Both the position numbers and the translations under genes were made by a program. This document shows, in pieces, positions 2,591 to 44,243 of a stretch of 64,000 nt of DNA. Within the stretch, counting starts at the first letter, position 1; each line of letters starts with the position of its first letter. The notes under the pieces were generated by a model. That model was not told the origin of the DNA. It saw nothing but the letters and a program-made list of their open reading frames with translations, and made no database searches. Source of the DNA: Candidatus Alcyoniella australis (GTDB lineage Bacteria; Lernaellota; Lernaellaia; JAVCCG01; Alcyoniellaceae); NCBI GenBank assembly GCA_030765605.1, contig JAVCCG010000133.1, positions 1-64,000 on the forward strand, given 5' to 3'.

Positions 2591-3020
2591 AATCGACCCT
2601 CCTCATTCCCGGCCCCATTGTAGAGATACAGCGGGCGATCGGCATGCACAGCGGATGCGGGCCGCGCCCAGGCACGTAAAACCCCAGATGGTAATTGTAA
2701 ATTTTTCCGACTTAGATTGTCAATCGACCAAGGCACAGTACAATCCGGATATTCACCCACGCAAGCGCATGTTTTTTCAGCAAATGGGATCTTCTGCCGC
2801 GCTGTTGACCGGTCGCGGAGGCGGCTTTGAGCCGCCCGCAAAGCTCGCGTATTGCGCTGGTCGTTGGCCAACGAACCGCGCCGCGTCGTGCAGAGCAGCG
2901 TTGATCTTAAGCGTGGAGTGCTTCCTTGTATTTGCGGCACCTTGCGCGCCTCGTTGACGAAACCTCATGAATAATCCAGGCTAGGTTCAGATGCCGTCGC
3001 ACTGCAGGAGGAGGTAACCA
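2591..3020. other. Intergenic region with repeat remnants
   Basis: The 430-bp gap lies between two divergent genes. I see no convincing gene: the open frames here lack ribosome sites and family likeness. The stretch 2815-2880 resembles the 80-bp repeat found at 31.3 kb, for example GGAGGCGGCTT followed by CGCTGGTCGTTGG. The stretch from about 2931 is a right-end copy of the dispersed inverted-repeat element. A strong AGGAGGAGG ribosome site at 3007-3015 serves the aminopeptidase. Confidence 0.6.
2931..2984 (+). repeat. Right-end copy of dispersed inverted-repeat element (degenerate)
   Basis: The sequence GCGGCACCTTGCGCGCCTCG and the following TCATGAATAATCCAGGCTA match the right end of the 186-bp element at 17589-17774 (GCGGTGTCTTGTGTGCCTCG, then TCATGAATAATCCGGGTTA). 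A possible diverged left end, AATCCGGATATTCA, lies near 2741. The interior does not match the other copies, so this is either a decayed or a mosaic copy. It ends 37 bp before the aminopeptidase start, in the same orientation as the other copies relative to the downstream gene. Confidence 0.6.
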
Positions 3021-4172: not shown

Positions 4173-6827
4173 ATGTCCGACAAGCTGACACTGGTCGACG
4201 GCAGCGCCTACATCTTCCGGGCGTTCTACGCGATCCGCCATCTGAGCAACAGCCGCGGCCTGCCCACCAACGCGGTTTACGGTTTCGTGACCATGCTGCG
4301 CAAGCTGCTGCGCGAGCGTCCGCCACAGGCTGTGGCCGTGGTCTTCGACACCAAGGCGCCGACCTTTCGCCATGAGATGTACTCCGAGTACAAGGCCAAC
4401 CGACCCGCGCCGCCGCCTGAGCTGGTGCCGCAGTTCGAGCTGGTGCGGCGCGCGGTGCGCGCGTTCAATCTGCCGTGCCTCGAGCTCGACGGTTACGAGG
4501 CCGACGACCTGATCGCCACGCTGGCCCGGCGTGCGCAACTCAGCGGCTGGCAAGTCGAGATCGTCAGCTCGGACAAGGATCTGTACCAGGTGGTCGGCGA
4601 TGGCGTGCTGCTGTTCGATCCGCTCAAGGACCGCGAGATCGGCCCGCAGCAGGTTAAGCAGCGCTTCGGCTCGGTGCGCCAAGCTGTCGACGTGATGGGC
4701 CTGGCCGGCGATGCGGGGGACAACGTGCCCGGCGTACCCGGGATCGGCGAAAAGACAGCGCTCAAACTGCTGGCGCAGTACGGCAGTTTCGATAACGTGC
4801 TCTCGGCCGCGGGAACGATCAAGGGCAAGCTCGGCGAACGGCTGCGCGAGCACGAGCAGCAGGCGCGGCTGAGCCGCAAACTGGTAACTCTCGATTACCA
4901 TGTGCCGCTTGATGTTGATTTGGACGATTTAGCGCTATGCGAGCCCGACCAGCAGGCGCTGCACGAGCTGTTCAGCGAGCTGGAGTTCGACGCCCTGCTG
5001 GCCACGATCTCCGATGCCAAGAGCGTGGACCAGAGCAACTACCGGCTGATTCTCGACGAGTCGCAGCTGCAACAGGTTGTGGAGCAGATCCGCGCGGCGG
5101 GCCGACTGAGTGTGGATACCGAGACCAGCTCCGAGCGCCCGATGCTCGCCAAGCTGGTCGGCGTCAGCCTCTGCTGGGAAGACGAGTCCGCGGCCTACCT
5201 GCCCCTGGCGCACGACAGCGAGGGCAGCGAGCGCCAGCTCGAGATGCAACGGGCGTTGGAGATCCTCGGTCCGCTGCTGCGCGACCCGGCGCTGCCCAAG
5301 GTCGGGCACAACATTAAGTACGACCAGATCGTGTTCGCCAACGCCGGGATCGAACTACGCGGCGTGGCCGGCGACAGCATGCTCGCCTCCTACCTGTTGG
5401 CTCCGGATAAGCGGCAACACAACCTGTCCGAGGTGGCGATTTCCACGCTGGGGCACAGGGCCACGTCCTATACCGACGTCTGCGGTAAGGGTAAGGCGCA
5501 GATCCCGTTCGCCGCGGTGGCGCTCGATACCGCGCGCGACTACTCGTGCGAGGATGCTCATCTGTCGTGGCTGCTCGAACAGCAGCTTAGCGAGCGGCTC
5601 GAGCAACAGGGCCTGGAGAGTCTCTACCACGAGCTCGAGGTGCCGCTAATCGACGTGCTGGCGCGGATGGAGCGCCAAGGCGTGCTGCTCGAGCGTTCGA
5701 TCCTCGAACGGCTCTCGATCGAGCTGGCCGGATCGCTGGAAATTCTGCGCGCCAAGATCTATCGCAGCGCGGGCGCGGAGTTCAACATCCAGTCGCCCAA
5801 GCAGATCGCGCCGATCCTGTTTGAGAAGCTCGGCCTGCCGGTAATTAAAAAGACCAAGACCGGCCCGAGCACCGACGTCAGCGTACTCGAACAGCTCGCG
5901 CCGCTGCACGAATTGCCGCAGATGCTGCTGGAATACCGCAGCATGTCCAAGCTCAAAGGAACCTATGCCGACGCCCTGCCCGGGCTGATCAATCCGCACA
6001 CCTTGCGCATTCACACATCGTTCAACATGACCTCCACGGCCACCGGTCGACTGTCGAGTTCGGATCCGAACCTGCAGAACATCCCGGTGCGCACGCCCGA
6101 GGGGCGGCGAATCCGCGAGGCGTTCATCGCGCCGCCGGGCTGCGTGCTGCTCTGCGCCGACTACAGCCAGATCGAGCTGCGGATCATGGCGCGGCTCTCC
6201 GGCGACGCGGGGATGTGCGACGCGTTCGAGCGCGGCCAGGACGTGCACCGTCGCACTGCGGGCGAGATCTTCGACAAGCCGCCGGACCAGGTCAGCGACG
6301 AGGAACGCCGCCGGGCCAAGACCATCAACTTCGGCATCATCTACGGCATCAGCGCCTTCCGCCTCGGCCGCGAGCTGGGGATCGAGGTCGGCGAGGCCAA
6401 GCGTTTCATGGACCGTTACTTCGAACGCTACAGCGGCGTGGCGCGCTACATGGAACAACAGGTGGAGCAGGCGCGCGAGCACGGCTACGTCGAGACGCTG
6501 CTCGGCCGCCGTCGCGCGTTGCCCGACATCAACGGCCGCGACCACAACATGCGGATGTTCGCCGAGCGCGTGGCGGTCAACACCCCGATCCAGGGCACAG
6601 CCGCTGACATCATCAAGCGCGCGATGCTCGAGGTCGACCGCGAGATCGGGCGCGTCCAAGGCGCGCGGATGCTCTTGCAGGTCCACGACGAGCTGGTGTT
6701 CGAGGTGCCGCAAGAGCGGGCCGATGAGCTGTCCCAGCTGGTGGTCGGGCTGATGAAGAGCGCTTCGTCGGAGGTGCCGATCGAGGTCGATGTGGGCCGC
6801 GGTCGCAACTGGGCCGAGGCGCACTGA
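4173..6827 (+). CDS. polA: DNA polymerase I
   Basis: This 884-residue protein has all three PolA domains. The 5'-3' exonuclease/FEN domain covers residues 1 to about 290 (VDGSAYIFRAFYA, SSDKDLYQVV, GDAGDNVPGVPGIGEKTA). The 3'-5' exonuclease looks active: SVDTET near 315 (Exo I), HNIKYD (Exo II) and YSCED (Exo III). The polymerase domain carries motif A DYSQIELR near 662, motif B RRAKTINFGIIYG near 715 and motif C VHDELVFEVP near 836. The enzyme processes Okazaki fragments and fills repair gaps. It follows the aminopeptidase by 6 bp with only a weak ribosome site, suggesting translational coupling. Confidence 0.97.
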   Translation: MSDKLTLVDGSAYIFRAFYAIRHLSNSRGLPTNAVYGFVTMLRKLLRERPPQAVAVVFDTKAPTFRHEMYSEYKANRPAPPPELVPQFELVRRAVRAFNLPCLELDGYEADDLIATLARRAQLSGWQVEIVSSDKDLYQVVGDGVLLFDPLKDREIGPQQVKQRFGSVRQAVDVMGLAGDAGDNVPGVPGIGEKTALKLLAQYGSFDNVLSAAGTIKGKLGERLREHEQQARLSRKLVTLDYHVPLDVDLDDLALCEPDQQALHELFSELEFDALLATISDAKSVDQSNYRLILDESQLQQVVEQIRAAGRLSVDTETSSERPMLAKLVGVSLCWEDESAAYLPLAHDSEGSERQLEMQRALEILGPLLRDPALPKVGHNIKYDQIVFANAGIELRGVAGDSMLASYLLAPDKRQHNLSEVAISTLGHRATSYTDVCGKGKAQIPFAAVALDTARDYSCEDAHLSWLLEQQLSERLEQQGLESLYHELEVPLIDVLARMERQGVLLERSILERLSIELAGSLEILRAKIYRSAGAEFNIQSPKQIAPILFEKLGLPVIKKTKTGPSTDVSVLEQLAPLHELPQMLLEYRSMSKLKGTYADALPGLINPHTLRIHTSFNMTSTATGRLSSSDPNLQNIPVRTPEGRRIREAFIAPPGCVLLCADYSQIELRIMARLSGDAGMCDAFERGQDVHRRTAGEIFDKPPDQVSDEERRRAKTINFGIIYGISAFRLGRELGIEVGEAKRFMDRYFERYSGVARYMEQQVEQAREHGYVETLLGRRRALPDINGRDHNMRMFAERVAVNTPIQGTAADIIKRAMLEVDREIGRVQGARMLLQVHDELVFEVPQERADELSQLVVGLMKSASSEVPIEVDVGRGRNWAEAH

Positions 6828-17588: not shown

Positions 17589-17774
17589 TTAACCCGGAAT
17601 ATTCATGAAGCTCCTACTGCGGCGCACAATACGCTCGCAATAACTTCGTCATCCTCACCGATCCGTCCTCGACGTACCGTAGCGGGTACGCCTGCGGAGT
17701 ATCGGCTCGGCTTTCTCATTCTTGCGGTGTCTTGTGTGCCTCGTCAACGAACCCTCATGAATAATCCGGGTTAA
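17589..17774 (+). repeat. 186-bp element with 20-bp terminal inverted repeats (MITE-like)
   Basis: The left end TTAACCCGGAATATTCATGA and the right end (reverse complement TTAACCCGGATTATTCATGA) match at 19 of 20 positions. Inside is a hairpin, CGTACC-GTAGC-GGGTACG, and the conserved stretches ACTGCGG-GCACAAT and GCTCGCAATAAC. A second full copy is at 43705-43887. Their interiors are similar, while the inverted ends differ in sequence yet stay self-complementary, which points to selection for structure. No coding capacity is seen. It fills the gap between divergent lptF and ftsK. Confidence 0.8.
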
Positions 17775-36892: not shown

Positions 36893-37016
36893 TATTTAAT
36901 CCCCACCTTCATCCGACGCGGAGTGGATCGTTGTATTAGGACTAGCGGACTGCGCGAGTTTTGCTCCGGCTCCAAGCCGGGCGCGTTGACGAAGCTCGTT
37001 AAATATTCCAGGCTAG
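36893..37016 (-). repeat. Inverted copy of the 80-bp repeat joined to a right end of the TIR element
   Basis: Read on the minus strand, 36980-36893 aligns with the unit at 31306-31465 (GGCTTGGAG, then CGCGCAGT-CGCT, then ATCCACTCCGC and GGTGGGGATTA), at roughly 75 per cent by eye. The following 36981-37016 (CGCGTTGACGAAGCTCG then AAATATTCCAGGCTAG) matches the right end of the inverted-repeat element, in plus orientation. AAATATTG and CAATATTT just before (about 36884-36903) repeat the inverted motif seen at 31176. The block ends 4 bp before the next gene's start codon. Confidence 0.7.
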
Positions 37017-43673: not shown

Positions 43674-43704
43674 GAGGCTAAGTGGCGATGATTATCACGC
43701 GTCC

Positions 43705-43887
43705 TAACCCGCATTTCTCACGAGGGGTCTACTGCGGTGCACAATCTGCTCGCAATAACAGCGTCATCCTCGCCGATCCATGCTCGACGTACCGCAGAGG
43801 GTACGTCTGCGCAGAATCGACTCGTCTTCCTTGTTCTTGCGGCATCTTGCACGCCTCGCTACGAACCCTCGTGAGAAATGCGGGCTA
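43705..43887 (+). repeat. 183-bp element with 22-bp terminal inverted repeats (MITE-like), second full copy
   Basis: The left end starts TAACCCGCATTTCTCACGAG and the right end is its reverse complement with one mismatch in 22. The interior shares ACTGCGG-GCACAAT, GCTCGCAATAAC, a CGTACC-GGGTACG hairpin and the TTCTTGCGG region with the copy at 17589-17774. Compared with that copy, the inverted ends carry paired changes (ATATTCATGA against CATTTCTCACGA) on both sides. The right end contains the start codon of the next gene. Confidence 0.82.
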
Positions 43888-44243
43888 AATTCGAGCGCAT
43901 TGTTCAGCGCGCGCTGGACACGATCCCGGACGAGTTCCAGGAGTACATCGCGCAGGTGCCGGTGCTGGTCGAGGATCGGCCGGACCCCGAGCTGCTGGCC
44001 GAGCTGGGCATGGACCCGGACGAGCTGCTGTTCGGGGTGTTCCTCGGCGTGCCCGTGGGCGAGCTCAGTGTGTTCGACGTGGTAACCGACGTGCCGCGGA
44101 TCGTGATCTTCCGCGAGGATCTGAGCCAGGCGTTCCCCGACGAGGCCGAGCTTTGCCACGAGATCCAGACCACGGTGCTGCACGAGGTGGCGCACCTGTT
44201 CGGCCTGGACGAGGCGCGGCTGGATGAACTGGGGTTCGGTTGA
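43878..44243 (+). CDS. Minimal zincin-type metallopeptidase (PF06262-like)
   Basis: This 121-residue protein has the motif HEVAHLFGLDEARLDELG near residues 103-120, the extended HExxHxxGxxD zinc site, at the very C-terminus. The preceding PRIVIFREDL strand fits the minimal one-domain metallopeptidase family. No signal peptide is present, so it is cytoplasmic. The only usable start, ATG 43878, lies within the right inverted repeat of the preceding element, so codons 1-3 come from the repeat. Confidence 0.82.
   Translation: MRAKFERIVQRALDTIPDEFQEYIAQVPVLVEDRPDPELLAELGMDPDELLFGVFLGVPVGELSVFDVVTDVPRIVIFREDLSQAFPDEAELCHEIQTTVLHEVAHLFGLDEARLDELGFG

Follow-up and report, generated by a model that had tools for sequence, protein, structure and literature searches.

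The dispersed repeats of the 64-kb window (the whole stretch of DNA analysed here) are probably MITEs with ends of the IS1380 type, carrying a conserved, structured hairpin which folds in the minus strand and appears to have exchanged its terminal inverted repeats (TIRs); a role of the hairpin at the RNA level is hypothetical. Its occurrence in many genomes, sometimes between quite different ends, suggests an undescribed mobile RNA-like element; more tentatively, one mobile structured-RNA family might extend across much of the bacterial domain, the hairpin being the part under selection and the TIRs, of the IS1380 type or other, serving as interchangeable vehicles. MITE interiors usually count as arbitrary or decayed filler. 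In the present case, about 13% and 32% of the genomes in two sampled sets share an interior whose fold is conserved, with pairing that is strand-specific; this interior is also found between unrelated end repeats, yet it has no entry in Rfam. If the hairpin acts as an RNA, a large class of anonymous intergenic repeats of uncultivated bacteria, and probably of Geobacter, would be united under a single name, with a function open to testing; if it does not, it would represent a strong natural case of palindrome maintenance.

The copies found in the window are collected in Table 1. The bodies of the two full-length elements, A and B, measure 177-178 bp between 4-bp direct repeats and score 203 and 207 bits, respectively (E about 1e-44, both copies being part of the covariance model); TIR-like ends number four in the window, against 0.01 expected from shuffling. 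The initial annotation had listed two full and two right-end copies: both full copies are indeed present, with TIRs and 4-bp duplications, although B starts one base earlier than had been given, while the right-end copies have to be redefined, the one at 2931-2984 belonging to the right-hand portion of a longer variant of 268-270 bp, and the one at 36981-37016 being a TIR-like piece of a weak fragment to which the covariance model assigns no score. A minus-strand gene (17585) has its start codon 3 bases away from the left end of element A. In the case of element B, the right TIR contains the start codon called for the zincin-like gene (ATG CGG GCT AAA), which the insertion therefore seems to have provided.

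Table 1. Copies of the repeat and associated features in the 64-kb window.
Feature	Position	Strand	Remarks
Element A, full-length	17589..17774	+	Target duplications TTAA at 17589-17592 and 17771-17774; body 17593-17770
Element B, full-length	43704..43888	+	Target duplications CTAA at 43704-43707 and 43885-43888; body 43708-43884
Right part of 268-270-bp variant	2820..2984	+	GGCGGCTTTGAGCCGCC insert present; left end absent; right flank CTAG
Weak, rearranged end fragment	36945..37016	+	Right TIR-like part 36981-37016 and inverted GGCGGC-type hairpin copy
Structured core of A	17608..17755	-	Hairpin with internal loops, apical stem CGTAC/GTACG; minus is the folded strand
Zincin-like ORF (name from the initial annotation)	43878..44243	+	Called start codon within right TIR of element B

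In the assembly to which the window belongs (4.29 Mb in 157 contigs), a BLAST search with element A as the query gave 46 matches on both strands, about 31 of them full length, and a search for the end sequence gave 159 ends, compared to 6 with a reversed control pattern; a large number of ends stand alone. Convergent ends are overwhelmingly spaced by 178-180 bp, with a few derivatives of 268-270 and 69-118 bp; the mean pairwise identity of 31 copies from this genome is 82%, and the family is therefore not brand new. The 268-270-bp variant, complete at C79:19572-19841 and C98:92214-92481, contains in its interior an additional GGCGGCTTTGAGCCGCCCGCAAAGCTCGCG hairpin segment, lone fragments of which are found in contig C63 and at C133:71179; the piece of the window from about 2820 begins where the GGCGGCTTTGAGCCGCC hairpin of these complete copies begins. 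The 69-118-bp deletion derivatives (C66:27228-27296, C48:26204-26278, C28:1210-1287 and C119:29980-30069) retain both ends. Candidates for an autonomous element, sought between ends 0.5-3.5 kb apart, were discarded: those of 986 and 963 bp in the same genome, and those of 1.67 kb in genome G044 and of 1197 and 2317 bp in genome G268, are apparently ordinary genes between solo ends. No match to the elements was obtained by BLAST against plasmids and phages.

The TIR of the element, CC[CT]G[GC]ATTATTCATGA, belongs to the set of ends of the IS1380 family. Duplication of the target was assessed on the flanks of 39 paired ends by comparing the last bases on the left with the first on the right at lengths from 2 to 9: at length 4 the two flanks share 102 of 156 letters, a value reached by none of 5000 permutations of the pairing, which give 84.9 (sd 3.7); the effect is strongest at this length, the others showing no significant one, and the consensus of the flanks, CTAG, conforms to YTAR. 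Comparable ends, taken from elements on named plasmids, are those of IS1380-family elements in Azotobacter chroococcum (CCCGGATTTCTCATGA) and in Nostoc (CCCGGATTTCTCACAA) and those of ISBdi2 (CCCGTCTTATTCGTGA, flanked on both sides by CTAG). An intact IS1380 element of 1738 bp from Fermentibacterota, matching the NF033539 equivalog, has CCCGGATCCATCACACC between TTAG duplications. In two further genomes the end of the local IS1380 matches that of the local element: TTAG followed by CCCGCATTTCTCACCA beside an intact, 391-bit IS1380 transposase (genome G283; right end only found), and TTAG followed by CCCGCATTTCTCATCAG at an IS1380 remnant (genome G373). The likeness to the IS1380 family (NF033539 / PF13701; IS1380A, ISBdi2, ISSp1) thus concerns a TIR of the form CCCGGAT..TCA and YTAR-like 4-bp duplications, whereas the element differs in having no transposase gene and a conserved interior not known from IS; in its own genome, a fragmented assembly of 157 contigs, no recognisable IS1380 transposase was found. 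Short length, absence of a transposase gene, many intergenic copies, IS1380-type TIRs and a 4-bp duplication of the parental type are all observed, and they support the view that the repeats are non-autonomous MITEs; the suggestion of the initial annotation that they may be non-autonomous transposons is supported by the TIRs, the YTAR duplication and the IS1380-type ends. They would be moved in trans by a DDE transposase of the IS1380 family into YTAR sites, with formation of the 4-bp duplication.

The interior of the element is best read as a conserved hairpin and not as leftover IS sequence. The core forms a hairpin of about 120-145 bp, with conserved motifs around the internal loops and the apical CGTAC/GTACG stem; its stems vary by compensation, while the mismatched motifs persist across genomes in which the stems are altered. 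It had been noted from the two full copies that the TIRs differ in sequence but remain self-complementary; over 31 copies of the genome, 27 pairs of the palindrome occur in at least two Watson-Crick types. A broader model (R2), built on the opposite strand from 29 diverse copies, shows compensatory double changes in 50 of 53 pairs and a covariation score of 0.602, compared to 0.214 (sd 0.011) after shuffling (reached in none of 500 shuffles) and to 0.10-0.17 with slid partners. Single elements, too, fold far better than their shuffles (z from -6 to -14). The idea of selection for a folded form, against which a lack of compensatory changes was to have counted, is thus strengthened across genomes by covariation; part of the covariation could still be yielded by quasi-palindrome correction without selection, and a function of the hairpin is what we infer. 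In a MAFFT alignment the unpaired columns of the core are on average no more conserved than the paired ones, and the elements match no Rfam family, tRNAs being the only hits that reach a gathering score.

The same core is flanked by IS1380-type ends in many genomes and by other ends elsewhere. In genome G268 it lies between GAGCCAATTGCAAAATTAT ends (656 ends, elements of 178 bp), with exact 4-bp duplications, which are not YTAR, in 25 of 40 elements; in other genomes it lies between GGGTCTGTCGCGAAACTAA, TGAGCCCACGTTGAGCGA, AGGAGCCTGCCGGTGAAAC and further end types. Shorter elements of the core type have still other arms, e.g. GGCTGTTCAAAAAGG, and several of them adjoin tRNA genes. The finding of one core between IS1380-type and several unrelated TIRs is what argues for a structured passenger changing its transposon ends. 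In G268 (loci L231-L250) there are about 330 copies with GAGCCAATTGCAAAATTAT ends, of a median identity of 91%, and many contigs end at copies, the mark of a strong, fairly recent expansion. Core-type hairpins were also seen a few bases from tRNA genes (Met, Cys, Val and a Ser/Arg cluster; loci L202, L251, L255 and L263).

The distribution of the hairpin was followed with two covariance models, whose E-values are rough because of a shortened calibration; most genomes have no match at 1e-4. The model built from copies of the own genome only (R1) recovered full-length homologues in Fermentibacterota/Aegiribacteria (E about 1e-23) and had hits in 19 of 290 whole genomes, counting the own genome; with R2, the same hairpin of ~185 bp was found in 49 of 385 bacterial genomes and in 61 of 191 genomes from the phylum of genome G142, a set which includes single-contig genomes. 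BLAST gave no match to the element in relatives of the same class; in one of these (genome G005), diverged copies were detected by covariance model. A putatively viral contig from IMG/VR (L183) contains two core-type copies, at 754-867 and 5433-5546.

Were only double-stranded DNA important, G.T and A.C mismatches would be equally common on either strand. The alifold energy of the alignment is -61.5 kcal for the minus strand and -38.4 kcal for the plus strand; on the pairs agreed by the folds of both strands, the minus strand has 29 G.U against 8 A.C cells (P=7.5e-4), or 16:3 when one element is taken per genome. An initial count on the plus-strand fold had looked balanced, and was superseded by these symmetric tests. 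In a held-out test on elements outside the model-building set, aligned arm to arm with no strand preference, the core shows 61 G.U against 27 A.C (P=3.7e-4) and 76 G.A against 7 C.T, while the end repeats show no strand bias (9:6 for G.U and A.C); in the own genome alone, with fixed mismatches excluded, the bias is 66:35 (P=0.003). The end repeats lack the bias seen in the core, which indicates that the former act as sites in DNA while the latter acts as a single strand that is folded, the results pointing to the strand opposite to the plus strand of the initial annotation. Both compensatory changes and a strand-specific tolerance of G.U, as expected of a structured RNA, are seen, and the folded minus strand would be RNA rather than single-stranded DNA; strand-specific mutation could account for part of the bias, and the counts, being taken over related copies, lack full independence. 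It may be hypothesised that the fold makes a transcribed insertion tolerable or stable at the RNA level, for example through internal loops that interrupt the duplex against RNase III; a regularly interrupted duplex, with a harmless or stable transcript, would allow insertions to persist beside genes.

One alternative is a plain MITE, whose palindrome would owe its maintenance solely to template-switch (quasi-palindrome) correction and to binding of the transposase, the folded strand having no function. Paired changes can arise by palindrome repair, a known route of mutation, and the balanced mismatches of the TIR part agree with such an origin; that mismatched motifs are conserved across genomes despite changed stems, that the core is biased both in G.U over A.C (61:27) and in G.A over C.T (76 against 7), and that it is conserved across genomes and TIR types, all speak against it, and we consider this explanation unlikely. 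About equally unlikely appears a core acting as a hairpin of single-stranded DNA and not as RNA, e.g. as the substrate of a transposition coupled to the lagging strand or as a protein-bound cruciform: the unit is mobile, a strand bias is present and G.T pairs are tolerated in single-stranded DNA too, but the TIRs and 4-bp duplications indicate double-strand DDE transposition, and the G.A-rich internal loops, which are typical of RNA, fit an RNA better.

Two other alternatives depend on the position of the copies, 41 of which were placed relative to genes that a simple caller had predicted over 1.02 Mb: 12 lie in divergent, 21 in tandem and 8 in convergent gaps, a split matching that of intergenic length (28/54/18%), and 9 of the 21 tandem copies are co-directional with the genes, 12 being against them. 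The initial annotation had the right ends pointing toward gene starts and the elements tamed as leader RNAs or promoters; such a role agrees with the four pieces of the window, which all precede plus-strand genes, and with the compensatory changes, but the genome-wide scan, proposed there for enrichment and orientation before start codons, gave random orientation, and placement tracks intergenic space. Moreover, 8 of the 41 are located where the ends of two genes converge, and it is, if anything, the left end that is nearer to a gene (23 of 33 full copies; P=0.035, uncorrected, among several tests and possibly chance). Given the random placement genome-wide, the promoter or leader reading rests on four pieces of the window that lie there by chance; as a general rule it is refuted, and the reading is very improbable, although individual copies may still work in this way. 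Hardly more probable is a bidirectional terminator or 3'-end insulator: the hairpin is strong (z from -6 to -14), some copies abut stop codons and 8 placements are convergent, but convergent gaps are not enriched (20% of copies against 18% of intergenic length), 12 copies lie in divergent gaps and a T-run is absent from the ends in the alignment. For the MITE reading preferred here, copies would build up where insertion is harmless, and hence in intergenic DNA and in either orientation. In about 11 of the 41 cases, the copy adjoins or overlaps a neighbouring gene's stop codon (e.g. C22:23665, C119:111810, C72:58312 and C143:32092); since the YTAR target includes TAG/TAA, stop codons would seem to be places where landing does no harm.

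Among known systems, the prokaryotic MITEs treated in a review (PMC10969869), such as QMITE of Coxiella and Chunjie of Geobacter uraniireducens, resemble the element in a length below 500 bp, TIRs, target duplication, a stable hairpin and truncated or REP-like derivatives; the present element differs in that its interior is shared by many families of bacteria and by copies with different types of TIR, and no family of this kind is named in the parts of the review considered here (PMC10969869). In G. metallireducens, "24 predicted short RNA elements" were reported as intergenic and multicopy, with the central palindrome GRCGTAGCGCTGCTACGCC, similar sequences occurring in other Geobacter and in Desulfotalea (PMC2700814, Additional file 4). 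Compared by this central motif alone, they agree with the apical stem GACGTA..TACGCC of the core, and are therefore probable members of the hairpin family; they differ in having been described as an anonymous family of one genus and one other genome, TIRs and a wider structure being unmentioned (PMC2700814). Desulfotalea-1, likened here by description only, is a candidate structured element from Proteobacteria, doubtful as an RNA and without an Rfam number (PMC2864571). A search of the open-licence literature yielded no description of the cross-genome hairpin family. The REP/REPIN elements with RAYT transposases are likewise palindromic, multicopy and intergenic. TIRs accompanied by target duplications are not known from REPs; the element, having TIRs and a 4-bp duplication, differs from them in both. 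Its 69-118-bp derivatives, for their part, resemble REP-type palindromes.
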